Assembly (NCBI GenBank): GCA_028336925.1
Contig: JAOKVV010000002.1
Coordinates: 1-64,000 of the forward strand
Source of the DNA: Vicingaceae bacterium
GTDB lineage: Bacteria; Bacteroidota; Bacteroidia; Flavobacteriales_E; Vicingaceae
DNA: 64,000 nucleotides
Reading direction: 5' to 3'
Of this stretch, positions 27,635 through 45,671 are shown in pieces. Below the pieces are notes generated by a model. It was not told the DNA's origin, ran no database searches, and saw only the letters and a list, made by a program, of their open reading frames with translations. Every line of letters begins with the position of its first letter. The first letter of the stretch is position 1. The translations under genes and the position numbers were made by a program.

Positions 27635-28132
27635 TTAGTCATTTTTTTCAGTTGATTCCTCGTTAGTTGAAGCTGCAGCTGTTTCATTAACTGTATCTAC
27701 AGCTTTTTTAGCAGTACCTCTTCTACTTCTTTTTGGTTTAGCAGACTTTTTCTCATCACTAGAATTGTAAATATCATTAAAATCTACTAATTCAATCATA
27801 CACATCTCTGCATTATCACCAAGTCTGTTTCCAGTTTTAATAATACGAGTATAACCACCAGGACGATCAGCTATTTTCGGAGCAACTTCTCTGAATAATT
27901 CAGATACAGACTCTTTATTCTTTAAATAACTAAAAACCGTTCTTCTCATGTGAGTTGTATCATCCTTAGATTTTGTAATCAAGGGCTCTACAAATCCTCT
28001 AAGCGCTTTAGCTTTAGCAACAGTAGTATTAATTCTCTTGTGTTCGATAAGAGAACAAGCCATATTAGATAGCATTGATTTTCTATGACCACTTTTTCTA
28101 CTTAAGTGGTTTACTTTTTTACCGTGTCTCAT
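27635..28132 (-). CDS. rplQ: 50S ribosomal protein L17
   Basis: A 165-residue protein starting [20 protein letters not shown], the L17 signature; residues 1-~115 are the core. The last ~45 residues are a low-complexity Lys/Ser/Ala/Thr/Glu tail, an extension common in Bacteroidota but absent from the E. coli protein (127 residues). L17 binds 23S rRNA near the exit tunnel. Last gene of the operon, 4 bp after rpoA. Confidence 0.97.
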
Positions 28133-28136
28133 TTTC

Positions 28137-29129
28137 TTAGTCCTTATCTAATTTATACTTCGCTACGTTCATACCGAAATGAAGACCTTTTTTCTCGACT
28201 AGTTCGTCTAATTCGGTTAATGATTTCTTTCCAAAATTTCTAAACTTGAGTAGATCACTTTTATTAAACTGAACAAGTTCTCCTAAAGTTTCTACGTCAG
28301 CAGCTTTTAAACAATTAAGAGCTCTAACAGAAAGATCCATATCAACTAATTTGTTTTTCAACAATTGTCTCATGTGTAATGAATCTTCATCAAATTCCTC
28401 AACTGCAGATTTTTCTTCACTATCAATAGTTATTTTTTCATCAGAAAATAACATAAAATGTTGTATCAAAATCTTTGCAGACTCTTTCAACGCTTCTTTA
28501 GGGTGAATAGAACCATCTGTCTGTATAGTCAAAACCAATTTTTCATAATCAGTCTTTTGTTCTACTCTGTAATTCTCAATGTTATACTTTACATTCTTTA
28601 TGGGAGTGTATATAGAATCAATAGGAATTAATCCAACAACAGACTCAACAGGTGCATTTTCCTCTGAAGGCACATATCCACGACCTTTGTTAATAGTTAT
28701 CTCTAATGTCAACTTAACAGAAGTTTCCATGTTGCAGATAACAAGATCAGGATTTAATACTTGAAAAGCGGAAGTAAATTTACCAATATCACCAGCTGAA
28801 AAAGCAACTTGATTTCCAACAGTAATAACAACTTTCTCTGAATCTGTACCTTCAATTTGTTGTTTGAAACGAACTTGCTTAAGGTTTAGAATGATTGAAG
28901 TAACATCTTCTACTACACCTTCAATAGTTGCGAACTCATGATCAACACCTTGAATTTTTAATGAAGTGATAGCAAAGCCTTCAAGTGAAGAAAGTAATAT
29001 TCTACGTATAGCATTACCTACAGTAATTCCATAACCAGGTTCTAATGGACGAAACTCAAATTGTCCTTCAAAGTCATTTGACTCGATCATTATTACCTTA
29101 TCAGGTTTCTGAAAATCTAATATTGCCAT
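28137..29129 (-). CDS. rpoA: RNA polymerase subunit alpha
   Basis: A 330-residue subunit that nucleates RNA polymerase assembly. The ATG at 29129 ([14 protein letters not shown]) is preferred over an earlier in-frame start at 29177, which would overlap rpsD and add 16 unconserved residues. The N-terminal dimerisation domain has [20 protein letters not shown]; the C-terminal domain, which contacts UP elements and activators, has [20 protein letters not shown] and [21 protein letters not shown] linker of acidic residues joins them. Sits between rpsD and rplQ as usual. Confidence 0.97.
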
Positions 29130-29157
29130 GTTAATTTTTTCTAATGAATAAAATAAA

Positions 29158-29763
29158 TTATTTAGAGTAAAGTTCAACGATAAGTTGCTCTTTAATATTT
29201 TCAGGAATCTGAACTCTCTCAGGACTTGTAATAAAAGTACCCCTCATTGAAGCAGTATTCCACTCTAACCAATCATAATTATTGTTTCTATTAGCTAGAG
29301 AAGCTGTAATAGATTCAAGTGATTTAGATTTCTCTCTCACTTCAATAACATCACCATCTTTAACATTGTATGAAGGTACATTTACTACGTCACCATTCAC
29401 AACGATATGTCTATGACCTACTAACTGTCTTGCGCCTCTTCTTGTTGGAGCAATACCTAACCTGTATACAACATTATCCAATCTAGACTCACACAACCTT
29501 AAAAGATTTTCACCAGTAATACCTTTTGTTCTACTTGCTTTCTCAAACAAATTAGAAAACTGGCGCTCTAGAATACCATAAGTATATTTAGCTTTCTGCT
29601 TTTCCATTAACTGGATTGAATATTCTGATTGCTTACCTCTTCTTTTATTTGGACCATGTTGTCCAGGAGGATAATTCTTTTTTTCTAAAGCTTTGTCAGC
29701 GCCAAAAATAGGCTCTCTGAACTTACGTGCGATTTTAGATTTTGGACCTCTATATCTTGCCAT
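29158..29763 (-). CDS. rpsD: 30S ribosomal protein S4
   Basis: A 201-residue primary 16S rRNA-binding protein, starting [18 protein letters not shown]. It has the S4 RNA-binding domain ([38 protein letters not shown]). The N-terminal zinc-binding Cys motif found in some bacteria is absent. In E. coli S4 represses the alpha operon; no matching leader was looked for beyond the 42-bp gap to rpsK. Confidence 0.97.
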
Positions 29764-29805
29764 TTCTAATAATTATTTTTTTTAATAAACTATCTAAAGT
29801 GTAAA

Positions 29806-30192
29806 TTAAACACGTCTGCGTTTAGGCGGACGACAACCATTATGTGGAACAGGAGTAACATCAATAATTTCTGTAACTTCAATACCTGCATTATGGATTG
29901 TTCTTATAGCAGATTCTCTACCTGCTCCAGGACCCTTAACGTATACTTTAACCTTTCTTAAACCTGACTCATGTGCAACTTTAGCACAATCTTGAGCAGC
30001 CATTTGAGCCGCGTAAGGCGTATTCTTCTTAGAGCCTTTAAAACCCATCTTTCCAGATGAAGCCCAAGAAATTACTTGCCCTGTAGAATTAGTAAGAGAA
30101 ATAATTATATTATTAAATGTAGCATGTATGTGCGCTTGACCTACAGCTTCAACTTTTACAATTCTTTTTTTCTTCGCAGTTGATTTTGCCAT
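29806..30192 (-). CDS. rpsK: 30S ribosomal protein S11
   Basis: A 128-residue platform protein of the small subunit. Signature stretches [29 protein letters not shown] and the C-terminal [17 protein letters not shown] are all present; the [11 protein letters not shown] end is nearly invariant in bacteria. 14 bp after rpsM. Confidence 0.97.
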
Positions 30193-30206
30193 CTTATACT
30201 TATTTA

Positions 30207-30584
30207 CTATTTAGTAGCTTTCTTTTTGTTTGCAACAGTCTTTTTCTTACCTTTTCGAGTACGAGCATTGTTCTTCGTTTTTTGACCTCTCAATGGTAAA
30301 CCAACTCTGTGCCTAACACCACGATAACAACCGATATCCATTAAACGCTTAATGTTTAATTGAGTTTCTGATCTAAGGGCACCTTCAACTTTTAACGAAT
30401 CGCCAATCACTTTTCTAATTGCAGAAAGTTCATCATCATTCCAATCTTGAACTTTTGTATTAAAATCAACTTTAGCTTCTGTTAATATATTTTGGGCAGT
30501 TTTTCTACCAATCCCATAAATGTAAGTTAAACCGATTTCACCTCTTTTGTTCTTCGGTAAATCTATACCTGCTATCCTAGCCAT
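30207..30584 (-). CDS. rpsM: 30S ribosomal protein S13
   Basis: A 125-residue head protein contacting the P-site tRNA and L5. [20 protein letters not shown] and [20 protein letters not shown] are characteristic. The basic C-terminal tail ([18 protein letters not shown]) reaches the tRNA in known structures. Follows rpmJ by 25 bp. Confidence 0.97.
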
Positions 30585-30609
30585 ATATGCTTAATTTATT
30601 TCTTAATTA

Positions 30610-30726
30610 TTATCCTTGTCTTTGTTTGAATTTAGGGTTCTTTTTGTTGATAACGTAAAGTTTTCCCTTTCTTCTTACAATTTTGCATTCCGCACTTCTT
30701 TTCTTAATTGATGCTCTTACTTTCAT
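30610..30726 (-). CDS. rpmJ: 50S ribosomal protein L36 (zinc-free form)
   Basis: A 38-residue gene found by translating the minus strand between infA and rpsM: it starts [17 protein letters not shown] and ends [12 protein letters not shown]. The zinc-ligand positions of E. coli-type L36 (C11, C14, C27, H33) read Ser, Cys, Asn, Phe, so it cannot bind zinc in the usual way; Cys14 remains as a relic. This is normal for Bacteroidota. Position after infA is the standard order. Confidence 0.95.
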
Positions 30727-30770
30727 GTTTTCCTAATTTTCAGGGGCGCAAAGTTATGATTTTTATTTTA

Positions 30771-30989
30771 TTATTTATACCTATAGCTAATTCTTCCTTT
30801 AGATAAATCATAAGGTGACATTTCAACCTTAACTTTATCGCCAGGAAGCAACTTTATATAGTGCATTCTCATCTTACCAGAAATATGTGCAATTATCTCA
30901 TGCCCATTCTCTAACTCAACACGAAACATTGCATTTGACAATGCTTCTACAATTACACCATCTTGTTCTATCGACTTTTGCTTAGCCAT
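30771..30989 (-). CDS. infA: Translation initiation factor IF-1
   Basis: A 72-residue OB-fold protein that occupies the A site during initiation. [20 protein letters not shown] and the central [20 protein letters not shown] are typical, with the end [13 protein letters not shown]. It lies 12 bp after map and 44 bp before rpmJ. Confidence 0.97.
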
Positions 30990-31001
30990 AAATATTGTCT
31001 T

Positions 31002-31778
31002 CTATTTTTTATTTAATGCTTCTTCAATAATACTATGATCAGATAATACTTCTGCTTTTCCTTTTCTCACGACTACATCATGTTCAAAATGTGCAGAAGG
31101 CATACCGTCTGCAGTAGCAATTGTCCAACCATCATCAAGCTGCTTCACAGATCTTGACTTTAAATTAATCATAGGCTCAATAGCAATTACTAAACCTTCT
31201 TTCAATAACACTCCTCCACCTCTCTTCCCATAATTGGGAACCTCAGGGGCCTCATGAAGTTTTTTACCCAACCCATGACCTACCAATTCACGAACTACAC
31301 TGTAGCCATGATTTTCAGCATGGTGCTGAATGGCGAAACCAATATCACCAACCCTATTACCCGCTATTGCGGCTTGAATACCAAGGTTTAAACACTCCTT
31401 AGTAACAGTTAATAGATTTTTAGTTTCCTCGCTAACATTGCCTACCTGAAAAGTGTAAGCCACATCACCGTAAAATTCATTCATTAAAACACCACAATCG
31501 ATAGAAACAATATCACCATCTTTCAGCGGAATCTTATTGGGTAATCCATGCACTACTTCAGAATTAACTGAAGTCAATAAAGTACTAGGACAACCATATA
31601 ATCCCTTAAAACCAGGAAGAGCTTTATTATCTCTAATGAACTCCTCTGCAATTTTATCAAGCTCAAAGGTTACTACACCAGGTTTTACTAATGTACCAAT
31701 CAGAGCTAATGTTTTACATACTAATAAAGAACTTTCTCTCAGAAAATCAATCTGATCTTCCGTTTTCAAATAAATCAT
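31002..31778 (-). CDS. map: Methionine aminopeptidase, type I
   Basis: A 258-residue metalloenzyme removing the initiator Met from nascent proteins. Metal and substrate residues are in VVHGLPNKIPLKDGDIVSID, the DVAYTFQVG Asp, ELVGHGLGKKLHE and AIEPMINL, followed by a late Glu in the SAHFEHDVVV segment. No N-terminal zinc finger, so it is the short type Ia form. Between secY (1 bp away) and infA as in most Bacteroidota. Confidence 0.96.
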   Translation of the reverse strand: MIYLKTEDQIDFLRESSLLVCKTLALIGTLVKPGVVTFELDKIAEEFIRDNKALPGFKGLYGCPSTLLTSVNSEVVHGLPNKIPLKDGDIVSIDCGVLMNEFYGDVAYTFQVGNVSEETKNLLTVTKECLNLGIQAAIAGNRVGDIGFAIQHHAENHGYSVVRELVGHGLGKKLHEAPEVPNYGKRGGGVLLKEGLVIAIEPMINLKSRSVKQLDDGWTIATADGMPSAHFEHDVVVRKGKAEVLSDHSIIEEALNKK

Positions 31779-31779
31779 G

Positions 31780-33120
31780 TTAACCTGCCATATTTATGCT
31801 AGAGCGTCCTTTAATACGACCTGATTTCATCAAACCATCGTAATGGCGCATTAACAAATGACTTTCAATTTGCTGCAAGGTATCTAAGATAACCCCAACC
31901 ATAATTAATAGTGAAGTACCACCAAAAAATTGAGCAAATTGGCCATTAACTCCAAATATTCCTGCAAATGCGGGTAATATAGCCACAAGAGCCAAAAATA
32001 TAGACCCAGGCAATGTTATTCTAGACAAAACATTATCTAAGAACTCAGCAGTTTTTTTACCAGGCTTTACCCCAGGAATAAAACCACCATTCTTTTTCAT
32101 TTCATCTGCCATTTGATTAGGATTTACTGTTACCGCAGTATAAAAATAAGTAAAAGCAATAATCATAAGAGCAAAGATAAAGTTATACCAGAACCCTGTA
32201 TAATCACTTAATGCAGCAGCTACACCTGATAAACTATCAGAATCAGAGAATCCTACTAAAGTGATTGGAATAAACATTATCGCTTGAGCAAATATAATTG
32301 GCATAACACCAGCTGCATTCACTTTAAGAGGAAGATACTGACGAACACCGCCATATTGCTTATTACCAACGATTCTCTTAGCATACTGAACAGGCACTCT
32401 TCTTGTACCTTGAACTAGTAATATTGTACCAACAATAATAACCAAGAGAAGAACAATTTCTACTAACAAAATAACCAAACCACCATCTTTCAATCTAGAA
32501 GCAAATTCAGCAACAAAAGCAAATGGAAGATTAGCAATAATACCAATCATGATGATTAATGATATCCCGTTACCGATACCTTTTTCCGTAATTCTCTCAC
32601 CTAACCACATAACAAACATGGTGCCTGTAATTAATATAACTACTGTTGTGAACCACCAAAAGAAAGTATCCGGACGCACCATAGCACCGCCACCTGTAAA
32701 CTCAGGAACCTGAGAAGCGATGTAACCAGGAGCCTGGAATCCAACTATGGCAATAGTTAGGAAGCGAGTAATTTGATTAATCGTTCTTCTTCCACTTTCA
32801 CCTTCCTTTTGAAGCTTTTGGAAATAAGGTATAGCAATACCTAGTAACTGAACCACAATTGATGCACTAATATAAGGCATAATACCTAATGCAAATATAG
32901 AGGCCCTAGAAAATGCACCACCTGCAAATAAATCAAGCAAGCCAGCAATTCCACCACCGGAACCGCTATTAGCAATTTGAAGAGCTTCAGAATCTACACC
33001 GGGTAAAACAATATATGAACCCAATCTATATATCAATAAAAAACCAAGGGTATTAAGAATACGTACCCTTAGGTCTTCAATTTTAAAAATGTTTTGTATT
33101 GTTTCTAGGAATCGCTTCAT
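31780..33120 (-). CDS. secY: Preprotein translocase subunit SecY
   Basis: A 446-residue, ten-helix inner-membrane channel of the Sec translocon. It starts MKRFLETIQNIFKIEDLRVR and has the plug/first loop GSGGGIAGLLDLFAGGAFSR (helix 2a region), ALGIMPYISASIVVQLL, and cytoplasmic loop Arg residues in GTRRVPVQYAKR needed for SecA/ribosome contact. secE and secG are not in the window. 7 bp after rplO. Confidence 0.97.
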   Translation of the reverse strand: MKRFLETIQNIFKIEDLRVRILNTLGFLLIYRLGSYIVLPGVDSEALQIANSGSGGGIAGLLDLFAGGAFSRASIFALGIMPYISASIVVQLLGIAIPYFQKLQKEGESGRRTINQITRFLTIAIVGFQAPGYIASQVPEFTGGGAMVRPDTFFWWFTTVVILITGTMFVMWLGERITEKGIGNGISLIIMIGIIANLPFAFVAEFASRLKDGGLVILLVEIVLLLVIIVGTILLVQGTRRVPVQYAKRIVGNKQYGGVRQYLPLKVNAAGVMPIIFAQAIMFIPITLVGFSDSDSLSGVAAALSDYTGFWYNFIFALMIIAFTYFYTAVTVNPNQMADEMKKNGGFIPGVKPGKKTAEFLDNVLSRITLPGSIFLALVAILPAFAGIFGVNGQFAQFFGGTSLLIMVGVILDTLQQIESHLLMRHYDGLMKSGRIKGRSSINMAG

Positions 33121-33127
33121 TGTTGAA

Positions 33128-33577
33128 TTAAATTAATTCTGCCTTACCACCTTTATTTTCAATCGCTTCCTTAGCCGTTTTAGAAAATGCATGAGCATGA
33201 ACTTCTACAGAAGCCTCTAATACACCACGTCCAAGAATCTTAACTAAACTATTTTTAGAAGCAAAACCACTTTCGATTAATGTATCGAAATCAATTTTAG
33301 TTAATTTTTTATTATCAGCAATAGTTTGAATAGTATCAAGATTGATACCCAGATATTCCTTTCTATTGATATTTGTAAATCCAAATTTAGGAACACGCCT
33401 CTGAAGTGGCATTTGACCACCTTCAAATCCAACCTTTTTTGAATAACCCGATCTAGATTTCGCACCTTTATGACCTCTAGCAGCAGTACGACCTTTTCCT
33501 GATCCAATACCTCTACCTATTCTAACTTTCGCACTTTTATTTGAACCTTCTGCAGGTGTAAGATTACTTAAATCCAT
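33128..33577 (-). CDS. rplO: 50S ribosomal protein L15
   Basis: A 149-residue protein. The ATG at 33577 (MDLSNLTPAEGSNKSAKVRI) lies 10 bp after the rpmD stop; an earlier in-frame TTG at 33601 would overlap rpmD and is not conserved. Conserved core: GRGIGSGKGRTAARGHKGAK and GFEGGQMPLQRRVPKFGF. Confidence 0.95.
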   Translation of the reverse strand: MDLSNLTPAEGSNKSAKVRIGRGIGSGKGRTAARGHKGAKSRSGYSKKVGFEGGQMPLQRRVPKFGFTNINRKEYLGINLDTIQTIADNKKLTKIDFDTLIESGFASKNSLVKILGRGVLEASVEVHAHAFSKTAKEAIENKGGKAELI

Positions 33578-33587
33578 TATATCAATT

Positions 33588-33767
33588 TTAAATCTCTTCA
33601 ACAGAGACTAGGTGTTTTACTTTATTAACCATACCTAAAACTTGAGGAGTACCTTCAACTTCTACTGTTTGATTATTTTTTCTTAATCCAAGAGCAACAA
33701 GAGTTCTCTTTTGTCTCTCAGGTCTTCCGATATTACTTCTAACCTGTGTGATTTTAATCATTCCCAT
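33588..33767 (-). CDS. rpmD: 50S ribosomal protein L30
   Basis: A 59-residue protein from the ATG at 33767 ([20 protein letters not shown]). The second Met (33761) is also possible; a TTG at 33776 is the farthest open start. The conserved end is [15 protein letters not shown]. Lies between rpsE and rplO as in E. coli. Confidence 0.93.
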
Positions 33768-33778
33768 CTCTATCAATA

Positions 33779-34297
33779 TTATCCGTTAAAAACAGTATTT
33801 AAATCAACACCTCTATGCTTTGCAACTGTATAAGCATCTCTCATTAAGGCTAACGCTTCAATAGTTGCCTTTACTACGTTGTGAGGGTTAGATGAACCTT
33901 TAGACTTAGCAAGTACATCTGTAATACCAACACTCTCTAGAACTGCGCGCATTGCACCACCAGCAATAACTCCGGTACCATGTGCAGCAGGCTTTAAGAA
34001 AATATAAGCTCCACTATATTTACCATATTGCTCGTGAGGAACAGATCCATTTACGATAGGCACTTTAATTAAGTTTTTCTTAGCGTCATCAATACCTTTA
34101 GCAATCGCCTCAGTTACTTCATTTGCCTTACCTAATCCGTGACCAACTACTCCGTTCTCATCTCCTACCACAACAATAGCAGAAAAACTAAAGTGACGTC
34201 CACCTTTTGTTACCTTAGTAACACGCTGAATACCAACAAGCTTATCTTTTAATTCGATCTCGCTTGATTTAACTCTTTTTATATTTGAATTTGCCAT
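33779..34297 (-). CDS. rpsE: 30S ribosomal protein S5
   Basis: A 172-residue protein of the mRNA entry channel, important for accuracy. The double-stranded-RNA-binding N-terminal domain contains [20 protein letters not shown] and the loop region tied to spectinomycin action; the C-terminal domain has [19 protein letters not shown] and [16 protein letters not shown]. Confidence 0.97.
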
Positions 34298-34316
34298 AAT
34301 CTAGTCTTTATTGCTA

Positions 34317-34673
34317 TTAAAAGTTTAAGCCAGCTCCTCTTGCTCCTTCTGCTAACGATTTAATTCTACCGTGGTATAAGTAACCATTTCTATCGAAACT
34401 TACAGTATCAATACCAGCATTCTTTGCTCTCTCAGCAGCCGTTTTACCAACTACAGCAGCTTTTTCTACCTTAGAACCCTTTACTTTAGCAATATCAGCT
34501 TCTGCTGAAGAAACAGCTAACAAAGTTGCACCTGTAGCATCATCGATAAACTGAACATAAATCTCTTTGTTGCTTCTAAAAACTGACATCCTAGGTCTAT
34601 CAGCAGATCCTTTAACGATCTTTCTTACCCGTTTCTTAATACGGATTCTTCTATCCATTTTTGTTAAAGCCAT
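34317..34673 (-). CDS. rplR: 50S ribosomal protein L18
   Basis: A 118-residue 5S rRNA-binding protein. [20 protein letters not shown] is the basic N-terminus; [20 protein letters not shown] and the end [20 protein letters not shown] are typical. 19 bp before rpsE. Confidence 0.97.
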
Positions 34674-34681
34674 ATCTAATA

Positions 34682-35236
34682 TTATTTAGAAGCCGATTTA
34701 CCAGCTTTTCTTCTTAATTGTTCACCTTTAAACTTAATACCTTTTCCTTTGTACGGCTCAGGCTTTCTTAACGATCTGATCTTAGCAGCTACCTGACCAA
34801 TTAATTGTTTGTCGTAAGACTCTAAAACAACTAAAGGATTCTTTCCTCTTTCACTTGCTGTAGTAACAGTAACTTCCTCAGGAATTTCAAATACAATGTT
34901 ATGAGAAAATCCTAAAGATAGCTCAAGACGTTGACCTGTGTTGGCTGCTCTATAACCAACACCAACTAATTCTTGCTCTGTTTTAAATCCTTCAGAAACA
35001 CCAATGATCATATTATTGATCAATGATCTATATAAACCGTGCATTGCTTTATGAGGCTTCTGTTCTGTTTGCCTTTTTAACTCTACTTGTCCATCAACTA
35101 TTTCCAAAGTAATAGCTGAATCCATTTGCTGAGTTAAGGTTCCTTTTGGTCCTTTTACGGTAACTAAGTTTTTTTCTGAAACTGTTACTTCAACACCTTT
35201 AGCAATCTTAACTGGAGCTTTTCCTATTCGTGACAT
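34682..35236 (-). CDS. rplF: 50S ribosomal protein L6
   Basis: A 184-residue protein made of two similar alpha/beta domains. [17 protein letters not shown] and [12 protein letters not shown] open the first; the end of the second carries [20 protein letters not shown], the signature near the GTPase centre. Follows rpsH. Confidence 0.97.
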
Positions 35237-35255
35237 AACTTTCTAATTTCTATTC

Positions 35256-35654
35256 TTAGTATACGTAACATAAAACTTCACCACCCACTTTCAGAGTTTT
35301 TGCTTCTTTATCAGTAATAACACCTTTAGATGTAGATAAAATAGCAATACCTAATCCATTAATTACACGTGGTAGGTTATCTGTTTGAGCATATTTACGA
35401 AGTCCAGGTTTACTAACTCTAGTTAAACTTCTGATAGCTGATTCCTTTGAAACAGGGTGATACTTCAAAGCAATTTTAATATTACCTTGTGTATTAACAC
35501 CGTCTTCAAATTTATAATTCAAAATATATCCTTTTGAATGAAGAATCTTTGTAATTTCTTTCTTAAGGTTAGAAGCAGGAACATCTACAACTCTATGCTT
35601 AGCAGCTACTGCATTTCTTACTCTTGTTAAATAATCTGATATTGGATCTGTCAT
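35256..35654 (-). CDS. rpsH: 30S ribosomal protein S8
   Basis: A 132-residue central-domain protein. [15 protein letters not shown] at the start and the C-terminal [20 protein letters not shown] and GGEVLCYVY are the S8 signatures. In E. coli S8 represses the spc operon; whether this holds here is unknown. Confidence 0.97.
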
Positions 35655-35681
35655 CTTTATATCTCTTAATCTGTTACTTTA

Positions 35682-35951
35682 TTACCAACTAGCTTTTGTT
35701 ACACCAGGTATTAAACCATATGAAGCCATTTCTCTGAACTTAACCCTAGAAACACCAAACTGACGCATATACCCTTTAGGACGACCAGTAAGTTTACAAC
35801 GGTTGTGTAATCTAACAGCTGATGAGTTTTTAGGTAACTTCTGTAAACCTTCCCAATCTCCAGCTTCTTTTAAAGCAGCTCTTTTATCAGCATACTTTTC
35901 AACCATTCTTTGTCTTTTACGCTCTCTGGCTTTCATTGATTCTTTTGCCAT
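35682..35951 (-). CDS. rpsN: 30S ribosomal protein S14 (long, zinc-free form)
   Basis: An 89-residue protein starting [20 protein letters not shown]. It is the long form without the CxxC...CxxC zinc ribbon; only one Cys is seen, in [20 protein letters not shown]. The C-terminus [11 protein letters not shown] is standard. Located between rplE and rpsH. Confidence 0.97.
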
Positions 35952-35953
35952 AA

Positions 35954-36517
35954 CTATGCTTCTTTATTAGTTTTCATAAACGGTAATCCAAATTCTTTCA
36001 ATAAGGCTTTTGCCTCATCATTGGTATCTGCAGTGGTAACAAATGTAATATCCATACCACCAATATTGTTAATCTTATCAATATCGATCTCAGGAAAGAT
36101 AATTTGTTCTTTGATACCTAAAGTATAATTACCTTTTCCATCAAAGCCTTTATTATTAATCCCCTTGAAATCTCTCGTACGTGGCAAAGAAACAGAAATA
36201 AGACGATCTAAAAATTCGTACATTTTATCTCCTCTTAAAGTAACTTTAACTCCAACAGGCATACCTTTTCTTAACTTAAAGTTAGAAATATCCTTTTTAG
36301 AAAAAGTTGCAATCGCTTTTTGACCAGTAATAGTAGTCATTTCTGATACTGCCGAATCTATAAGTTTCTTATCAGAAACAGCTTTACCTACACCTTGGTT
36401 AAGGCAGATTTTGGTAAGCTTAGGAATTTGCATTACACTTTTGTAATCAAATTGCTTCATTAAAGAGTCTTTAATAGTCTCTTTGTATTCTTCTTTTAGT
36501 CTAGGTGAATAGTTCAT
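35954..36517 (-). CDS. rplE: 50S ribosomal protein L5
   Basis: A 187-residue 5S rRNA-binding protein that bridges to S13. It starts [57 protein letters not shown] and the end LLKEFGLPF are typical. The ATG overlaps the rplX stop codon (TAATG), giving translational coupling. Confidence 0.97.
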
Positions 36518-36837
36518 TACTTAATTACCTCCCCTGATTTTTTATTAAACCTAACAGTTTTATTATCTTCTTCTTTTCTACCTATACGACCTGCAACACC
36601 TGAAGTATCAACAACCATAAGATTAGAAATATGAATAGGAGCATCCATTTGTACAATACCACCCTGTGGATTTGCAGCATTTGGTTTAGTATGCTTACTC
36701 ATCTTTTTTATATCGTCGCCTTCTACAAGCGCTCTATTGCTATCGGGATAAACTTTAATAATAGTACCAATTTTGCCTTTTGATTCACCAGCAAGTACTT
36801 TTACTTTATCGCCTTTCTTTATATGTAACTTAGACAT
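36517..36837 (-). CDS. rplX: 50S ribosomal protein L24
   Basis: A 106-residue assembly-initiator protein. The ATG at 36837 ([20 protein letters not shown]) is the family start; an in-frame TTG at 36855 is upstream. The KOW motif is [21 protein letters not shown]-terminal part: [19 protein letters not shown]. Confidence 0.96.
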
Positions 36838-36860
36838 AATCTTCTTCGATTTCAATTAAT

Positions 36861-37229
36861 TTATAATACCTCAGGTGCAAGAGAAACAATCTTCATAAAT
36901 TGCTTATCTCTTAGTTCTCTAGCTACAGGTCCAAAAATACGAGTACCTCTCATTTCGCCAGTAGCGCCTAAAAGTACAACTGCATTATTATCAAATCTGA
37001 TGTAAGATCCATCAGGACGTCTGATTTCTTTTCTTGTTCTAACAACAACCGCTTTAGATACTGTACCTTTTTTGATGTTACCTGAAGGAATTGCACTTTT
37101 AACAGAAACAACAATTTTGTCTCCAATTCTTGCGTAACGCTTTCCTGTACCACCTAAAACACGGATACATAATACCTCTTTGGCACCGCTGTTATCAGCA
37201 ACTGTTAATCTTGATTCTTGCTGTATCAT
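36861..37229 (-). CDS. rplN: 50S ribosomal protein L14
   Basis: A 122-residue protein at the subunit interface. It opens [20 protein letters not shown] and contains the L14 signature around [20 protein letters not shown] and [20 protein letters not shown]. Confidence 0.97.
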
Positions 37230-37230
37230 C

Positions 37231-37488
37231 TTACTTAACTTTCTCTATGATTTCTACTAATCTCCAGTTCTTGCTCTTACTTAAAGGACGAGTCTCCATA
37301 ATCTTTACAGTATCACCAATGCTACACTCGTTCTTCTCATCATGAGCCATGAACTTGGAAGTCTTCTTGATAAACTTACCGTAAATAGGGTGCTTAACTT
37401 TACTTTCAACTGCAATAGTGATAGATTTTTCCATCTTATTGCTAAGAACAACACCAATTCTTTCTTTTCTTAAATTTCTCTTTTCCAT
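37231..37488 (-). CDS. rpsQ: 30S ribosomal protein S17
   Basis: An 85-residue OB-fold protein. [20 protein letters not shown] and [20 protein letters not shown], then [17 protein letters not shown], match the family. One base separates its stop from rplN. Confidence 0.97.
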
Positions 37489-37501
37489 CGAAGTAATTTT
37501 C

Positions 37502-37702
37502 TTATTTAGCTTCTTGAAGCTCTCTTTTACGAATTTCAGTATTCAATCTTGCGATTGTTTTTCTAGCTACTGTAATTTGCTTTGGGTTTTCCAAAGGAGA
37601 TACCGCATGACTCATTTTTAACTTACTAATAAGCTCTGAGCTTTCAGCTAGTTGCTCACGTAGATCATCTGTAGAAAGATTCTTTATATCAACTTGTTTC
37701 AT
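37502..37702 (-). CDS. rpmC: 50S ribosomal protein L29
   Basis: A 66-residue two-helix protein near the exit tunnel, a docking site for SRP and trigger factor. [20 protein letters not shown] and [20 protein letters not shown] are characteristic. Between rplP and rpsQ. Confidence 0.96.
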
Positions 37703-37718
37703 TATTCTAACTTTACGA

Positions 37719-38138
37719 TTATGCCTTATAATCTCTTCTTACAACAAATTTAGTTTTAACCGGTAATTTTTGAGCGGCTAATCTCATTGCCTCTTGAGCA
37801 ATTTCTAAAGGAACACCATCAGCTTCAAAAAGAATTCTTCCAGGCTTGATAGTTGCAACCCATAATTCAGGAGCACCCTTACCTTTTCCCATCCTAACTT
37901 CAGCAGGCTTCTTGGTTACGGGCTTATCTGGAAAAATTCGAATCCAAATTTGTCCTTCTCTCTTCATATATCTTGTAACTGCAATACGCGCAGCTTCAAT
38001 TTGTCTAGCAGTAATCCATGCAGATTCCATTGTTTTAATCGCAAAACTTCCAAAAGCAATCTCGGAACCTCTTCCGGCGTTACCTTTCATTCTGCCTTTC
38101 TGCATTTTTCTAAACTTCGTTCTCTTCGGTTGTAACAT
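37719..38138 (-). CDS. rplP: 50S ribosomal protein L16
   Basis: A 139-residue protein near the peptidyl-transferase centre. [20 protein letters not shown] and [20 protein letters not shown] are diagnostic. The conserved Arg stretch [19 protein letters not shown] is intact. Confidence 0.97.
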
Positions 38139-38180
38139 CTCTTTCTACTTTATTCTATCGTTACTTAAATCTTCGAAATA

Positions 38181-38906
38181 TTATTTTCTTTTTCTTCCTT
38201 TAAAGCGATCTCCAGATTCTCTTCTATCTCTACCACCTCTTGAAGGCTTATTAGATACAAGATTTGGAGATAAATCTCTTTTACCATATACTTCACCCTT
38301 GCAAATCCATACTTTAATACCAATACGGCCATAAGTAGTATGCGCTTCAGCTAAAGCGTAATCAATATCTGCTCTAAAAGTATGCAAAGGAGTTCTTCCC
38401 TCTTTGTAAGATTCAGTTCTTGCCATTTCAGCACCACCTAGTCGTCCACCGATAGAAATCTTTATCCCTTCAGCACCCATTCTGATAGTAGATGAAACAG
38501 CCATCTTAGCAGCACGTCTGAAAGAAATTCTTCCTTCAATTTGACGAGCAACACTGTCAGCAACTAACTGAGCGTCTAATTCAGGTCTCTTAATCTCGAA
38601 GATATTAATCTGAACGTCTTTTTTCGTTAACTTCTTTAATTCTTCACGAAGCTTATCAACCTCTTTACCACCTTTACCGATGATAATACCAGGTCTAGAA
38701 GTATTAATGGTAACAGTAATTAACTTAAGGGTTCTTTCTATGATAATTTTAGAAATACTTGCCTTTGTAAGACGTGCCATCAAATATTTTCTAATTTGAT
38801 CGTCTTCTGCTAATTTATCACCGTAATTTCTACCGCCATACCAATTAGAATCCCACCCCTTGATGATACCTAAACGATTGGCTATTGGATTAACTTTTTG
38901 TCCCAT
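38181..38906 (-). CDS. rpsC: 30S ribosomal protein S3
   Basis: A 241-residue head protein at the mRNA entrance. It starts [22 protein letters not shown]-type domain motif [21 protein letters not shown]-terminal core [14 protein letters not shown]-like segment here reads [19 protein letters not shown]. The tail is Arg/Gly/Lys-rich ([17 protein letters not shown]). Confidence 0.97.
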
Positions 38907-38934
38907 TATATACTAATAATCTTCGTAACTAATA

Positions 38935-39330
38935 TTATTTCAAACTATCTACTATGATAGTAACATGATTTGATCTTTTTCTAATTCTGTGACCACGTCC
39001 CTGGGGAGCAGGTCTTAATCTCTTAAGCATTCTTGCACTATCAACTTTAACCATACTTACAACCAACTTTTGGTCTTCGGCACGTTGACCCTCATTTTTA
39101 GCTTCCCAGTTAGCAATAGCAGACCGGAGTAATTTTTCCATACGCAAAGCAGCTTCCTTTGAACTAAACTGTAGCATATATAAAGCTTTAGTAACCTCTT
39201 CACCTCTGATCATATCAGCAACTAACCTCATTTTTCTTGGTGAGGTAGGGCAATTCTTAAGGCTTGCAAAACTAACAGTCTTGTTAGCTTCTTTTCTTTC
39301 GATTGCTTTTAATCTTTTTCTAGCACCCAT
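38935..39330 (-). CDS. rplV: 50S ribosomal protein L22
   Basis: A 131-residue exit-tunnel protein. Core motifs: [20 protein letters not shown] and the beta-hairpin [20 protein letters not shown]. The tunnel loop, where macrolide-resistance changes occur, looks normal. Confidence 0.97.
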
Positions 39331-39341
39331 AGTTCAAATTT

Positions 39342-39623
39342 TTACTTTCTTCCTTTATCCTTTTTATTACCACCATGACCACGGTATGTTCTAGTTGGAG
39401 CAAACTCTCCAAGCTTGTGACCAACCATATTCTCAGTAGCGTAAACAGGTATAAACTTATTACCGTTATGGACTGCTATAGTTAATCCTACAAAATCAGG
39501 AGTAATTACTGAGGCTCTAGACCATGTTTTAATTACTGTTTTCTTACCATTCGCTTTCGCATCATCTACTCTTTGAGATAATTTGTAATGTACAAAAGGT
39601 GGTTTCTTTAATGAACGACTCAT
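39342..39623 (-). CDS. rpsS: 30S ribosomal protein S19
   Basis: A 93-residue head protein that pairs with S13. [19 protein letters not shown] and [18 protein letters not shown] are the family signatures. 13 bp after rplB. Confidence 0.97.
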
Positions 39624-39636
39624 ACTCTAGCAGTTA

Positions 39637-40461
39637 TTATTTCTTTCTTCTCTCGATTATATACTTACTTGATTGCTTCTTAGGAGATCTTGTCTTATAT
39701 CCTTTAGAAGGTAATCCTTTTCTTGACCTTGGGTGTCCACCTGATGAACGACCTTCACCACCACCCATTGGGTGATCAACTGGGTTCATCACAACACCTC
39801 TAACTCTTGGACGACGCCCTAACCATCTTGACTTACCAGCTTTTCCTGAACGCTCCAACATGTGATCAGAGTTAGAAACAGCTCCAATAGTAGCCATACA
39901 TGTAATAAGAATCATCCTTGTTTCACCTGAAGGAAGTTTAATAACAACATACTTTTCTTCTCTTGCTACTAACTGAGCGTAAGAACCAGCACTTCTTGCC
40001 ATTTTACCACCCTGACCAGGACGCAACTCAATGTTGTGAATAATAGTACCTAAAGGAATTTCTGATAATAACATCGCATTACCAACCTCAGGTTCCACAC
40101 CTGCACCTGAAACAACTGTTTGATCGACTGCCAAACCGTTTGGTGCAATTATATATCTCTTTTCTCCATCAGCATAAACTAATAAAGCAATTCGAGCAGA
40201 TCTATTTGGATCGTATTCAATTGAAGCAACTCTAGCAGGAATGCCAGACTTCTCTCTCTTGAAATCAATTATTCTATATTTTTGCTTGTGACCACCACCA
40301 ATATAACGCATAGTCATTTTACCGCTATTATTTCTACCACCAGACTTTGACTTAGGAGCCAAAAGACTTTTCTCTGGAGTTGAAGTAGTAATCTCTTCAA
40401 AAGTAGAAGCAAACTTAAATCTTTGCCCCGGTGTGGTTGGTCTTAATTTCTTAACTGCCAT
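39637..40461 (-). CDS. rplB: 50S ribosomal protein L2
   Basis: A 274-residue protein needed for subunit joining and peptidyl transfer. [35 protein letters not shown] and the conserved [20 protein letters not shown] with the functional His are present. Confidence 0.97.
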
Positions 40462-40472
40462 CTTAAATCTCT

Positions 40473-40763
40473 TTAAATATTACTGTAAAAATCAATTGTA
40501 TCACCTGATTCAAGTGTAACAATAGCTTTCTTAGTACTATTAGTTCGTCCTTCTACCCATCCTGTTCGGGTATATTTTGTCTTTTTCTTTCCGAAAATAT
40601 TCATTGTGTTTACTTCTTTAACAGCAACACCGTATGCCTTCTCTACAGCTTCTTTGATCTGGATCTTATTAGCAGTTTTATCTACTATAAAACCATACCT
40701 GCCCAAACTCTCAGTTAGGTTAGTCATTTTCTCTGTGATTACTGGCTTTACTATAATACTCAT
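40473..40763 (-). CDS. rplW: 50S ribosomal protein L23
   Basis: A 96-residue exit-site protein and binding platform for trigger factor and [23 protein letters not shown] and [20 protein letters not shown] are the L23 signatures. Confidence 0.96.
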
Positions 40764-40769
40764 GGCTTT

Positions 40770-41396
40770 TTAGCTTAAAATTGTTTGAATAGACTCTAAA
40801 GAACCTTCACAAAGCATTATGTTTGAAGCGTTTATCAAATCATAAGTACTTAATCCTGAAGCTGTTGTAACTTTAGTGTTCTTCAAATTTCGGGATGACA
40901 AATATATGTTTTTATTTAAATCTGAAAGCACTATTAATGATTTTTTATCATTTACTTTCAAATTATCTAATAAAGCTTTGAATTCCTTTGTCTTAGGAGT
41001 GTCAAAATTAAAGTCTTCTACAACCATAATATTTCCGCCTTGAGCCTTATAGGATAAAGCAGACTTACGAGCTAAAGCTTTCAATTTTTTGTTCAATTTA
41101 AAGCTATAGTTTCTTGGTCTAGGTCCAAATATAGTACCACCACCTTTAAAAACAGGTGACTTAATACTACCCGCACGAGCAGTACCTGTTCCTTTTTGTT
41201 TCTTAATCTTTCTAGTACTACCTGTTACTTCAGCTCTTTCTTTAGCCTTGTGAGTACCTTGTCTTTGATTTGCTAGATATTGTTTAACATCTAAATATAT
41301 TGCGTGATCATTAGGTTCAATACCGAAGATTGTTGCAGAAAGAGTTACCTTCTTCTTGGTATCATTACCCTTGATGTTTTTTACAGTTAATTCCAT
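40770..41396 (-). CDS. rplD: 50S ribosomal protein L4
   Basis: A 208-residue tunnel protein. [20 protein letters not shown] and [20 protein letters not shown] form the extended tunnel loop; the globular part ends [17 protein letters not shown]. In E. coli L4 represses the S10 operon. Confidence 0.96.
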
Positions 41397-41416
41397 AACG
41401 TTATTTCCTTCGGATT

Positions 41417-42031
41417 TTACTTGTTAATAGTTACGATTGAACCCTTAGCACCAGGAATAGATCCTTTAATTACAATAAGATTCTTATCAGAGTATACCTT
41501 AATAACTTCTAAGTTCTCAGTAGTTACTCTAACGTTACCCATTTGACCGGCCATTCTCATACCTTTCATTACTCTAGAAGGTGTAGAAGCAGCACCAATA
41601 GAACCAGGAGCTCTTAATCTGTTGTGCTGACCGTGAGTTGCTCCACCAACACCGGCAAAGCCATGTCTTTTAACAACCCCTTGGAAACCTTTTCCTTTAG
41701 ATGTACCTGACACATCAACAAATTCTCCTTCTTGAAATAAAGAAGCGTCAACAACGTCACCTACCTTCTTATCATCAAAACCAGAAAACTCAACTAACTT
41801 AAATTTAGGAGTAGTTCCTGCCTTTTTGAAATGTCCTAGCATAGCAGAAGGAGTATTCTTCTCTTTCTTTTCGCCATATGCTAACTGAGTAGCTACGTAG
41901 CCATCAATCTCAGTTGACTTTACTTGTGTTACAACACAAGGACCAGCTTCTATTACTGTGCATGGGATATTTTTCCCCTCGGCACTAAAAACACTAGTCA
42001 TACCTATTTTTTTACCTATTAAACCTGGCAT
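41417..42031 (-). CDS. rplC: 50S ribosomal protein L3
   Basis: A 204-residue protein whose extended loop reaches the peptidyl-transferase centre. [39 protein letters not shown] and [20 protein letters not shown] mark it clearly. The Gln in THGQHNRLR, a methylation site in E. coli, is present. Confidence 0.97.
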
Positions 42032-42055
42032 CTTATATGATTAAATTTATTATTC

Positions 42056-42361
42056 TTATACTTTAATTTCTACATCAACTCCACTTGGCAATTCAAGCTT
42101 CATTAACGCATCTACCGTTTTAGAAGTAGAACTGTAAATATCTAACAACCTTTTGTAAGAACTTAATTGAAACTGCTCTCTCGCCTTCTTACTTACGTGT
42201 GGAGACTTCAATACAGTATAAATTCTTTTATGTGTTGGTAATGGAATTGGACCACTAACAACTGCACCTGTAGACTTTACAGTCTTTACAATTTTCTCTG
42301 CTGACTTATCAACTAAGTTGAAATCGTAAGACTTTAATTTTATGCGAATTTTCTGATTCAT
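42056..42361 (-). CDS. rpsJ: 30S ribosomal protein S10
   Basis: A 101-residue protein also known as NusE, which links the leading ribosome to RNA polymerase through NusG and takes part in antitermination with Nus[41 protein letters not shown] and the end [11 protein letters not shown] are typical. Confidence 0.97.
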
Positions 42362-42378
42362 TCTGTTTATCTTAAATA

Positions 42379-44487
42379 TTAAGCTTCTACTTTTCCGTGA
42401 GCCTTATCAATAACTACTTTAGCAAGGTTTTGAGGCAATACATCATAATGTGAAAATTCCATTGATGAAGTTGCTCTACCTGAAGACATCGTTCTTAATG
42501 ACGTTACATATCCAAACATTTCTGACAATGGCACCTTAGCTTTAATAACCTTAGCTCCATTTCTATCATCCATACCATCAACTTGTCCTCTTCTTCTGTT
42601 CAAATCACCTACGATGTCACCCATATACTCCTCAGGAGTTACAGCTTCCATCTTCATGATTGGCTCAAGAATAACTGGATTAGCTTTAGGCATTGCAGCT
42701 CTGTAAGCCATTTTAGCAGCTAATTCAAATGATAATTGATCAGAATCCACCGGGTGGAAAGATCCATCATGAATAGTTACTTTTAAGCTATCTACAGAAT
42801 AACCTGCAAGAACACCGTTCTTCATAGCTTCCTTAAAACCTTTCTCTACTGATGGGATAAATTCTTTAGGAACATTACCACCTTTTACAAGGTTGATAAA
42901 TTCTAAACCTTCTTTTTCCACATCATCCACAGCTTCAATAGTAACTTGAATATCTGCAAACTTACCACGACCACCGGACTGCTTCTTATACACCTCTCTG
43001 TGCTGGATAGAACCGGTGATTGTTTCTTTATAATTAACTTGAGGTGCACCTTGGTTACACTCAACTTTAAATTCTCTTTTTAAACGATCTAAGATGATAT
43101 CTAAGTGAAGCTCACCCATACCACTTAATACCGTTTGACCTGACTCCTCATCCGTATGGATAGTTAATGTAGGATCCTCTTCTGATAATTTAGCTAAAGC
43201 CATACCCAATTTATCAACATCAGCTTGAGTCTTAGGCTCAATTGCAATACCAATTACAGGATCAGGAAAGTCCATTGATTCCAATACGATTGGATGCGCT
43301 TCATTACAAAGAGTGTCACCAGTTTTAATATCCTTAAACCCAACTAAAGCAGCAATATCTCCTGCTTGAAGTCTTTCAATTTGGTTTTGCTTATTAGCGT
43401 GCATTTGGAAGATACGAGAAATACGCTCTTTCTTACCTGTTCTTGTATTTAAGATATATGAACCTGCTTCTAAAACACCTGAGTAAGCTCTAGTAAAACA
43501 TAGACGTCCTACGAAAGGGTCAGTTGCAATTTTAAATGCCAATGCTGCAAATGGCTCGTCAACACTTGGCTTTCTGCTAGCAGGCTGTTCAGTATCAGGA
43601 TTAACCCCATCAATAGCTTCAACATCCATAGGAGATGGCAATAATTCCATCACATAGTTCAACATCGTTTGTACACCTTTATTCTTGAAAGATGAACCAC
43701 AAACCATAGGAACAATTTTCATAGAAATAGTAGCTGCTCTTAACGCTGATAAAATTTCAACTTCAGTAATTGATGCAGGATCTTCAAAATACTTCTCCAT
43801 TAAAGTATCATCAAATTCAGCAATAGCTTCCAATAATAATTCTCTATAATGTGTAGCTTCCTCAATCATATCCTCAGGAACGTCGATAGTCTCATACGTC
43901 ATACCAAAATCATCCTCATTCCAGATAATTCCTTTGAAGTTCAATAAATCAACTACTCCTCTAAAAGTTTCTTCTGCACCAATTGGCAACTGCAATGGCA
44001 CAGCAGTACTTCCTAACATTTCTTTAACTTGCTTACATACTTTCAAAAACTCAGCACCTTGACGGTCCATTTTGTTTACGAAACCAATACGAGCAACGTT
44101 ATAGTTATTAGCTAATCTCCAGTTAGTTTCTGATTGTGGTTCTACACCATCAACAGCGCTAAATAGAAAAACTAGACCATCTAATACACGAAGAGATCTA
44201 TTTACTTCTACTGTAAAATCTACGTGTCCAGGAGTATCAATTATGTTTATGTGATATTGCTGGTCTTTATAAGGCCAGAATACAGTAGTAGCAGCTGAAG
44301 TAATTGTAATACCTCTTTCTTGCTCTTGCTCCATCCAGTCCATAGTAGCTCCACCATCGTGAACCTCACCAATTTTGTGACTTACTCCTGAGTAAAACAA
44401 TATACGCTCAGTGGTAGTAGTTTTACCAGCATCAATATGTGCTGCAATACCAATATTTCTAGTATACTTAAGATCTCTTTTTGCCAT
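42379..44487 (-). CDS. fusA: Elongation factor G
   Basis: A 702-residue translocation GTPase. G1 [19 protein letters not shown], the switch region [14 protein letters not shown]3 [13 protein letters not shown] and G4 [12 protein letters not shown] are complete, followed by domains II-V ([19 protein letters not shown] in domain V). It lies between rpsG and rpsJ, so the str and S10 operons are joined; no tuf gene is present between them. Confidence 0.97.
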
Positions 44488-44514
44488 TGTATTTTATTCT
44501 TCTTATTGTAAAAA

Positions 44515-44985
44515 TTAGAATCTAAAGTGAGAGAATGCTTTGTTAGCTTCTGCCATTCTGTGGGTATCTTCTTTTTTCTTGTGAGAAGCACCTTCTTCTT
44601 TGAATGCTGCAATGATTTCTCCCGCTAATTTATCAGCCATTGTTTTCTCATTGCGCTTCCTTGCATATCCTATCATCGCTTTAACAGCCATTGACGTTTT
44701 TCTTTCGTCTCTAATCTGTTGTGGAATCTGGAACGTTGCCCCTCCTACTCTTCTACTTCTTACCTCTACTTGTGGAGTAACGTTTATTACTGCTTTTTTC
44801 CAAACCTCTAATGCGTTCTCTTCTTTCAAACGGTCTTGTACAATATCCATTGCTGAATAAAAAATACCGTATGCAATACTCTTCTTACCGTCCAGCATTA
44901 AGTTGTTTACAAATCTTGTAACATCTACACTATGAAATTTTGGATCTGGTAGAATTGGTCTACTCTTAGCTCTAGTTTTTCTCAT
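44515..44985 (-). CDS. rpsG: 30S ribosomal protein S7
   Basis: A 156-residue protein that nucleates the 16S 3' major domain. [19 protein letters not shown] and [20 protein letters not shown] are the signatures; the C-terminal helices end NKAFSHFRF. 27 bp before fusA. Confidence 0.97.
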
Positions 44986-45022
44986 GATTTCTCTTTACTT
45001 ATAAACTTTAACGTCTATTATC

Positions 45023-45397
45023 TTATTTTTTTGGTCTTTTAGCACCATACTTAGATCTTCTTTGTGTACGACCGGCAACACCAGCAGTATCTAAAGCTCC
45101 TCTTACAATATGGTATCGAACACCTGGTAAATCTTTAACTCTACCACCTCGAACTAATACTATCGAGTGCTCTTGTAGGTTATGACCTTCTCCCGGAATG
45201 TAAGCATTCACTTCTTTCTGGTTAGTTAATCTTACCCTTGCTACTTTTCTCATCGCTGAGTTTGGCTTCTTAGGTGTAGTAGTATAAACTCTTACACAAA
45301 CACCTCTTCTCTGAGGACAAGAATCTAAAGCAGCAGATTTACTCTTCTTTTCGAGCTTTACTCTACCTTTTCTTACAAGTTGTTGAATCGTTGGCAT
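45023..45397 (-). CDS. rpsL: 30S ribosomal protein S12
   Basis: A 124-residue decoding-centre protein and first gene of the large ribosomal operon. [39 protein letters not shown] and [19 protein letters not shown] carry the two Lys positions where streptomycin-resistance changes arise; both are the sensitive Lys. A promoter and a 5'-leader hairpin lie just upstream. Confidence 0.97.
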
Positions 45398-45427
45398 ACG
45401 TTATTATTTATATAAATGCACAAATTA

Positions 45428-45444
45428 TCCCCAATTTTTGGGGA
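45428..45444 (-). promoter_or_regulatory. Leader hairpin of the ribosomal operon
   Basis: TCCCCAA (45428-45434) pairs with TTGGGGA (45438-45444) around a 3-base loop. It lies 31 bp before rpsL and, judged from the promoter box, at or within a few bases of the mRNA 5' end. There is no T-tract, so it is not a terminator. Confidence 0.6.
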
Positions 45445-45446
45445 CG

Positions 45447-45476
45447 CAAATGTACAAGATTTTTTATTTAATGCAA
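45447..45476 (-). promoter_or_regulatory. Bacteroidota-type promoter of the str-S10-spc-alpha operon
   Basis: On the minus strand TTG (45476-45474), 19 bases, then TACATTTG (45454-45447) match the TTG-N17-23-TAnnTTTG pattern exactly. The predicted transcription start is around 45445-45440, about 45 bases before the rpsL ATG. The adjacent spacer is very AT-rich. Confidence 0.65.
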
Positions 45477-45671
45477 CGCACTAATTAATTTTTTTTGAAT
45501 TATTTATATAGTTTCTTCCGTTGAGAGAAACTAAGTGCGCTAAAAGCCGTGGCTTATAACCTATTTAAGGTCCGCAAAAGTAATTCTTTTTCATACATTT
45601 TTACATTGCTTGTTAATTATTTCTTTCTATAAGTATCAAAAGACTTTTTGAGTTTCTTTAATTTTGCCCTC

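Follow-up and report, generated by a model that had tools for sequence, protein, structure and literature searches.

The E. coli ompA and papA mRNAs carry a stabilising stem-loop, placed at the 5' end or within a few bases of it and upstream of the start codon. At the locus studied here, the region upstream of rpsL in a 64,000-nucleotide stretch of DNA (the window, by which we mean the whole stretch analysed), a stem-loop is likewise predicted ahead of the start codon, where the mRNA should begin. Unlike the ompA and papA elements, it is tied to the start of a growth-type promoter, precedes a ribosomal-protein operon and recurs in much of a bacterial class.

Structured leaders are also described upstream of ribosomal-protein genes in these same lineages: excerpts of PMC7247131 list leaders for L13 and S4 in Bacteroidia, and for S4, S15 and S16 in Flavobacteria. 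The rpsL element resembles them in being such a leader, but is a minimal hairpin, located at the start site and devoid of a conserved motif. Neither an S12 nor an rpsL leader is among the Table 1 entries in those excerpts, where the lone 'rpsl' entry is, judging by gene order, rpsI in the L13 row. In the open-licence papers searched, we found no description of such a hairpin at rpsL; excerpts of PMC9723704 report 64 structured 5' regions in F. psychrophilum, and rpsL might be among them.

Promoter, start site and stem in the window

The feature upstream of rpsL lies on the minus strand of the window, and is composed as follows, together with the genes that it precedes.

45489-45496, minus strand: A-tract, UP-element-like, upstream of the promoter; presumed function
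45474-45476, minus strand: -33 element TTG, with a 19-base spacer to the -7 box
45447-45454, minus strand: -7 box TACATTTG, Bacteroidota sigma-A consensus TAnnTTTG
45442-45445, minus strand: predicted transcription start, either C45442 from box spacing or the purine G45445
45438-45444, minus strand: left arm TCCCCAA of the putative 5'-terminal hairpin, from sequence and comparison
45435-45437, minus strand: loop AAA, A/T-rich and variable among relatives
45428-45434, minus strand: right arm TTGGGGA, a G-run following the C-run across relatives
45398-45427, minus strand: remaining 5' leader, 30 bases from the hairpin to the rpsL start codon
45023-45397, minus strand: rpsL (ribosomal protein S12), first gene, ATG at 45397
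27635-45397, minus strand: co-directional array rpsL-rpsG-fusA-S10-spc-alpha-rplQ, 33 ORFs, 17.8 kb

An earlier note on this DNA had described a giant operon of 30 genes and about 17.8 kb. The length stands; the count, with gene names assigned by eye from translations, is 33 ORFs from rpsL to rplQ and not 30. Gaps inside this array are at most 44 bases, and carA comes next after 88.

The promoter has both Bacteroidota sigma-A elements, a -7 TAnnTTTG and a -33 TTG at about 19 bases, and the arrangement first pointed out, TTG-N19-TACATTTG (45476-45447) followed by a perfect stem TCCCCAA/TTGGGGA (45444-45428) at the predicted start, is confirmed. After TACATTTG the order is C, G, TCCCCAA, AAA and TTGGGGA. 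A-tracts are similarly placed in many rpsL upstream regions of the same family. Given that the sigma-A consensus box occupies -12 to -5 in F. psychrophilum (PMC9723704, excerpts), the predicted +1 is C45442; the nearest purine upstream of it is G45445, and purine starts are preferred in B. thetaiotaomicron (86%). Located at this start, as predicted from box spacing or purine preference, the stem is a perfect 7 bp closed by a loop of three A, with an extra G-U pair possible (G45445/U45427). Whether the RNA is folded from G45445 or from C45442, its first base is predicted to be paired.

Folded alone, the hairpin reaches -10.3 kcal/mol (z -2.1) from G45445 and -5.0 kcal/mol (z -1.2) from C45442, while the z-score of the whole leader is -2.8 and -0.9, respectively. 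Judged by its single sequence, the stem is only moderately unusual, which is weak evidence. With z-scores this modest, the window alone is not decisive, and it is the comparison between genomes that decides.

Two further features of the neighbourhood were seen. A second box, TACTTTTG-C followed by ACCTTAAATAGGT, is found at 45582-45550 on the minus strand, about 128 bases upstream of the main rpsL box; it has no -33 TTG, and no such box is seen in L003, an upstream region from the same genus. On the plus strand, at 45659-45666, TAATTTTG lies only five bases before the ATG of a uvrD-like gene, which suggests that the predicted divergent transcript is nearly leaderless.

Start hairpins in the rpsL leaders of Bacteroidia

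The comparison covers 170 rpsL upstream regions. Of these, 90 come from related genomes and that of the window itself (S12 matches were found in 91 of 100 genomes, and G099 was left out); the other 80, the best of 591, come from named records. A usable promoter was present in 166; L070, L196, L205 and L209 were dropped for a weak promoter or the lack of a C after the box. Because this C was demanded, and also earned a bonus in the promoter score, its presence after TTTG in all 166 leaders is by construction. Collapsing leaders at least 80% identical over 30 bases left 126 non-redundant ones. The statistics given below for rpsL leaders are uncorrected for phylogeny.

In a first measure the best hairpin was chosen for each leader, which favours pairing, and in 113 of 166 rpsL leaders the start hairpin reached -3 kcal/mol. 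This measure also catches longer-range folds, as -3 was reached by 11 of 73 background promoters and by 4 of 6 outgroup leaders. The background consists of 73 ORFs with an upstream TAnnTTTG, taken from the window and from 400 kb of a same-genus genome; the window's rpsL ranks 4th among them by the first measure, and 1st of the 8 that have a strict -33 TTG. Under a stricter local measure, which asks for a closing pair no later than the fifth base after TTTG and for all pairs within 30, the threshold is reached by 103 of 166 rpsL leaders versus 3 of 73 background promoters, rpsL being among the 3, and by 1 of the 6 outgroup leaders. This comparative evidence puts the predicted start hairpin of rpsL beyond chance.

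By origin, start hairpins are found in 65 of 89 leaders from the window's own and related genomes, and in 31 of 39 from the window's own family. The corresponding figures are 48 of 80 for the named records, the best 80 of 591, of which 77 have a usable promoter, and 17 of 22 for the Flavobacteriia-type records among them, as assigned from their titles. The commonest pattern is TTTGC-NN-YCCC-(A/T-rich)-GGG. In most sampled Bacteroidia, the rpsL transcript is thus predicted, with good confidence, to begin with a small hairpin, in which a C-run pairs with a G-run 8-15 bases further on; the promoter is of the growth type, dependent on sigma-A, and the hairpin forms at about its +1. Four of these start hairpins (L044, L052, L060 and L076) are followed by long, terminator-like T-runs.

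About a third of the 166 leaders have no start hairpin. It is absent or weak in Bacteroides, both Chryseobacterium, Sphingobacterium, Apibacter and one Tannerella MAG, and also in genus g4 of the window's own family. Its occurrence varies with leader length: 0 of 10 leaders under 32 nt, 2 of 7 at 32-39 nt and 83 of 109 at 40 nt or more. The median distance from the end of the stem to the start codon is 37 bases. Among 20 non-Bacteroidia genomes of the phylum, used as an outgroup, 14 lack a Bacteroidia-type promoter of sufficient score, and none of the 6 with a promoter match has a CCC/GGG start hairpin.

Pairing under arm exchange and variation of the loop

If the two arms of a stem are matched within each genome, exchanging the first nine bases between genomes should weaken the pairing. 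Over the 126 non-redundant leaders, mean energy was -4.65 kcal/mol, against -3.50 with arms swapped (20 repeats, sd 0.20, best -3.97) and -2.02 with the right part shuffled. The excess is located in the 87 leaders with CCC, 72 of which have a hairpin of -3 kcal/mol or better: their mean is -5.69 versus -4.62 upon swapping, and 0 of 100 swaps were as good. The 39 leaders without CCC gave -2.34 versus -2.08, with 18 of 100 swaps as good and hence no excess. These comparisons show selection on the predicted stem as a structure only for leaders of the C-run type.

The G-run follows the same division, GGG being found downstream in 63 of 87 leaders with CCC versus 6 of 39 without (Fisher p about 2e-9, relatedness ignored), and it is local, being present at positions 10-25 in 67 of 126 leaders and at 30-45 in 2 of 91 (Fisher p about 7e-18, relatedness ignored). 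As arm exchange always weakens pairing in the CCC class, the pairs around the C/G core must match too. A three-pair core is present in 71 leaders. Their fourth pair, on which no condition was set, is a standard one in 61 of 70 and occurs as A-U, U-A, C-G, U-G, G-C and G-U.

A claim of covariation between unlike stems was withdrawn. It came from a first test on leaders with 'not CCC at bases 4-6' (n = 64, 0 of 200 swaps as good), which misled because in many of them CCC was still present, one base further upstream; excluding CCC anywhere at bases 3-7 leaves the 39 leaders of the negative test given above. Striking single stems do exist, both in leaders with CCC and in those lacking it, examples being CCCTCA/TGAGGG in Winogradskyella, CTCTT/AAGAG in Polaribacter, CACAGTTT/AAACTGTG in Muribaculum and CCCTCAAA/TTTGAGGG in L051; in leaders without a C-run we treat them as anecdotes. 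The failure to find covariation in leaders without a C-run lowers our confidence both in the structure and in a stabilising function.

We relied on arm-swap controls, since a MAFFT alignment of 54 of the 71 core-hairpin leaders left loops unopened and right arms out of register; this alignment was kept out of the pair counts. When the core was fixed at bases 4-6 after TTTG, so that it is paired by construction and base 0 is invariant, the outer bases 1-3 paired with the flank only at chance. In a scan of the closing pair, the swap excess was found at bases 2-5, most clearly at base 4 (the fifth after TTTG, nominal +1), and was gone from base 6 (the seventh) on. The scan is in keeping with a putative RNA element whose anchor is the predicted start of transcription. 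The earlier note had read the stem as a possible 5'-end hairpin and proposed looking at the rpsL upstream regions of relatives: its position at the predicted 5' end and its conservation hold, as does the covariation for C-run leaders, but not for the 39 without, and the contrary pattern, in which flanks are conserved and stem bases are not, was not seen among rpsL relatives.

The loop varies in sequence and size among relatives, the apical loop spanning 3 to 12 bases, and this bears on two explanations in which a protein recognises the site. The first is a DNA palindrome serving as operator for a dimeric repressor that overlaps the start. The window copy, a perfect inverted repeat at the start site whose 7-base arms flank 3 bases, would suit such a role. 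However, an operator should keep its sequence and spacing, whereas here the loop changes in length and the pairs beyond the C/G core vary yet stay complementary, so that we consider this explanation very improbable.

The second is a binding site for an autoregulatory ribosomal protein, the alternative named in the earlier note, which our results favour less than protection of the 5' end. Other operons of Bacteroidia and Flavobacteria do have leaders of such a kind (PMC7247131, excerpts), and the E. coli str operon is autoregulated by S7 (PMC10931766, excerpts). That S7 site, however, is intercistronic, before rpsG, rather than at the 5' end (same excerpts). In our leaders there is no conserved loop or bulge, hence no conserved motif for a ribosomal protein to bind, as loop sequence, loop length and outer stem all vary freely; a search of Rfam 15 gave no match in the window or in the loci of 20 relatives; and similar hairpins start rplM leaders and a few transcripts entering tRNA (see below). 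We regard a ribosomal-protein site as unlikely. Both it and the operator are disfavoured by the variability of the predicted element, and the free variation of the loops favours a role in structure only over a sequence-specific repressor site.

C-runs at growth-type promoters and the role of the hairpin

TANNTTTGCNNYCCC is present in 4 copies in the window's incomplete assembly and in 9 copies in the same-genus genome, versus 0 and 2 copies of a reversed control pattern, and 11 of these 13 sites, partly identified by eye, precede rRNA operons, rpsL, tRNA clusters, prs or rpoD. A C-run after TTTGC is common to rRNA, tRNA, prs and rpoD promoters and to many rplU and rpsT promoters, from which it follows that the C-run is a feature of the growth-type promoter; the hairpin is an additional layer on it. 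Of 30 rRNA loci, 9 in reverse orientation were left unread, and 20 of the 21 read have a growth-type promoter with a C after the box, this C being demanded by the filter. Some of these have hairpins.

For rplU, rplM, groES, rpsM, S20 and S15, we used 30 genomes that had been picked knowing their rpsL leaders, a choice that favours hairpin carriers. The 29 of 30 found for rpsL in this set is therefore inflated, the unselected figure being the 113 of 166 given above. The -3 threshold is reached in 19 of 29 rplM, 5 of 27 rplU, 12 of 28 rpsT-region and 8 of 27 rpsO leaders. The local measure gives 28 of 30 for rpsL, 15 of 29 for rplM, 5 of 27 for rplU, 10 of 28 for the rpsT region and 3 of 26 for rpsO, where one locus was unparsed. 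Hairpins are thus frequent in rplM leaders and rare in those of rplU and rpsO. C-run/G-run start hairpins like those of rpsL open the rplM leaders L265, L267, L269, L274, L277, L279 and L283. Transcripts that enter the rpsT region through a tRNA-like sequence, which we take to be tRNA-Glu, open with a clean CCC/GGG start hairpin in L390, L395 and L396; in L391 and L397 the best fold extends into that sequence.

Two candidates were set aside. groES was tried as a control, and 22 of its 30 loci have no TAnnTTTG promoter of sufficient score, while of the remaining 8, the first measure puts 6 at -3 or better and the local measure 1; a table of F. psychrophilum promoters that carry a sigma-54 motif includes groES (PMC9723704, Table 2, excerpts). 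The other is an internal promoter. In the infA-rpmJ gap of the window (30756-30720, minus strand), TAACTTTG-CGCCCCTGAAAATTAGG resembles a growth-type promoter with a weak start hairpin. Such a promoter is found within 420 bases upstream of the S13 match in only 3 of 30 loci, with the same site only in the same-genus G002 (in L353 and L354 the S13 match is partial, so that the stretch examined was off), and a general internal growth-type promoter before rpmJ (30756) was rejected on this count.

The role of the hairpin may first be sought in the promoter itself. If the growth-type promoter imposes a C-run at about +1 to +3, a local G-run could fold it back and prevent mispairing with downstream RNA, an RNA-DNA hybrid or slow promoter escape, any protection from decay being secondary. 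The C-run is indeed a promoter feature, the hairpin tracks it (see the GGG counts, and the absence of a swap signal without CCC), and a few clean hairpins, in L390, L395 and L396, precede tRNA-like sequence. The negative swap test in leaders without CCC strengthens this explanation. Most rplU transcripts, and most rpsT transcripts with short leaders, nevertheless have the C-run and no hairpin, and such a neutralisation of the C-run remains in our view a somewhat doubtful account.

A second role would be that of a promoter-proximal attenuator, in which the hairpin and a T-rich tract halt or terminate RNA polymerase about 25-30 bases after the start, until ribosomal proteins are needed. Like intrinsic terminators and attenuators, the rpsL element is a short GC-rich hairpin followed in a subset of cases by a T-rich tract: at position 25, one of seven looked at, the sequence is T-rich in 47% of 111 leaders with a hairpin versus 17% of 24 without (Fisher p 0.006, uncorrected). 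It differs from them in beginning at the predicted transcription start and in its tail, since at least 6 T in the 8 bases directly after the hairpin are found in 10 of 76 hairpins of -5 or better, and not in the other 66. In the window, we found no stem directly followed by a T-run between 45300 and 45700. Attenuation thus seems improbable.

The explanation that we place first, while holding it tentatively, is that the hairpin stabilises the message by protecting its 5' end, and a role like that of the ompA stem-loop is compatible with the data. In this view the hairpin would cap the message structurally. An RNA whose first bases are paired would be a poor substrate for pyrophosphate removal and for RNase E/G, which senses 5'-monophosphate, and the 17.8-kb message would live longer, while a hairpin about 30-40 bases upstream of the start codon would leave ribosomes unhindered. 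Excerpts of PMC3997798 state that base-paired 5' ends are poorly cleaved by RNase E, and that B. subtilis RppH requires two or more bases to be unpaired. In Bacteroidetes/Chlorobi, RNase E/G is described with lengths of 503-570 residues (PMC3071783, excerpts), and we found the family (PF10150) in 18 of 18 genomes searched, as a family-level match. The free variation of loop and outer stem, the anchoring near +1, the distance to the start codon and the presence of RNase E/G fit a 5' shield that depends on structure only. We infer both transcription from +1 and protection. Several observations argue against a cap: leaders without CCC show no swap excess; about a third of the rpsL leaders lack the hairpin; with a purine start, the 5' end would in many relatives carry as many as three unpaired bases, acceptable to an RppH of the B. 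subtilis type; a few start hairpins precede a tRNA, for which mRNA stability is not needed; and a T-rich stretch is commoner after hairpins.

For the Bacteroidia, in which we found little on the regulation of ribosomal-protein synthesis in the literature searched, the analysis draws attention to a short, conserved element that is predicted to open a message ranking among the largest and most important in the cell, and separates a C-run imposed by the promoter from a hairpin at the RNA level. Beyond rpsL, there might possibly be a common design of 5' ends for transcripts of the translation machinery, in which the C-run of growth-type promoters is folded at +1 into a minimal-hairpin cap, kept before the whole str-S10-spc-alpha operon, many rplM operons and some tRNA and rRNA transcripts. 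Such a design, if true, would tie the class of a promoter to the lifetime of its RNA or to promoter escape. The element, 15-20 bases long and open to compensatory mutations, makes 5'-end-dependent mRNA stability in Bacteroidia directly testable.
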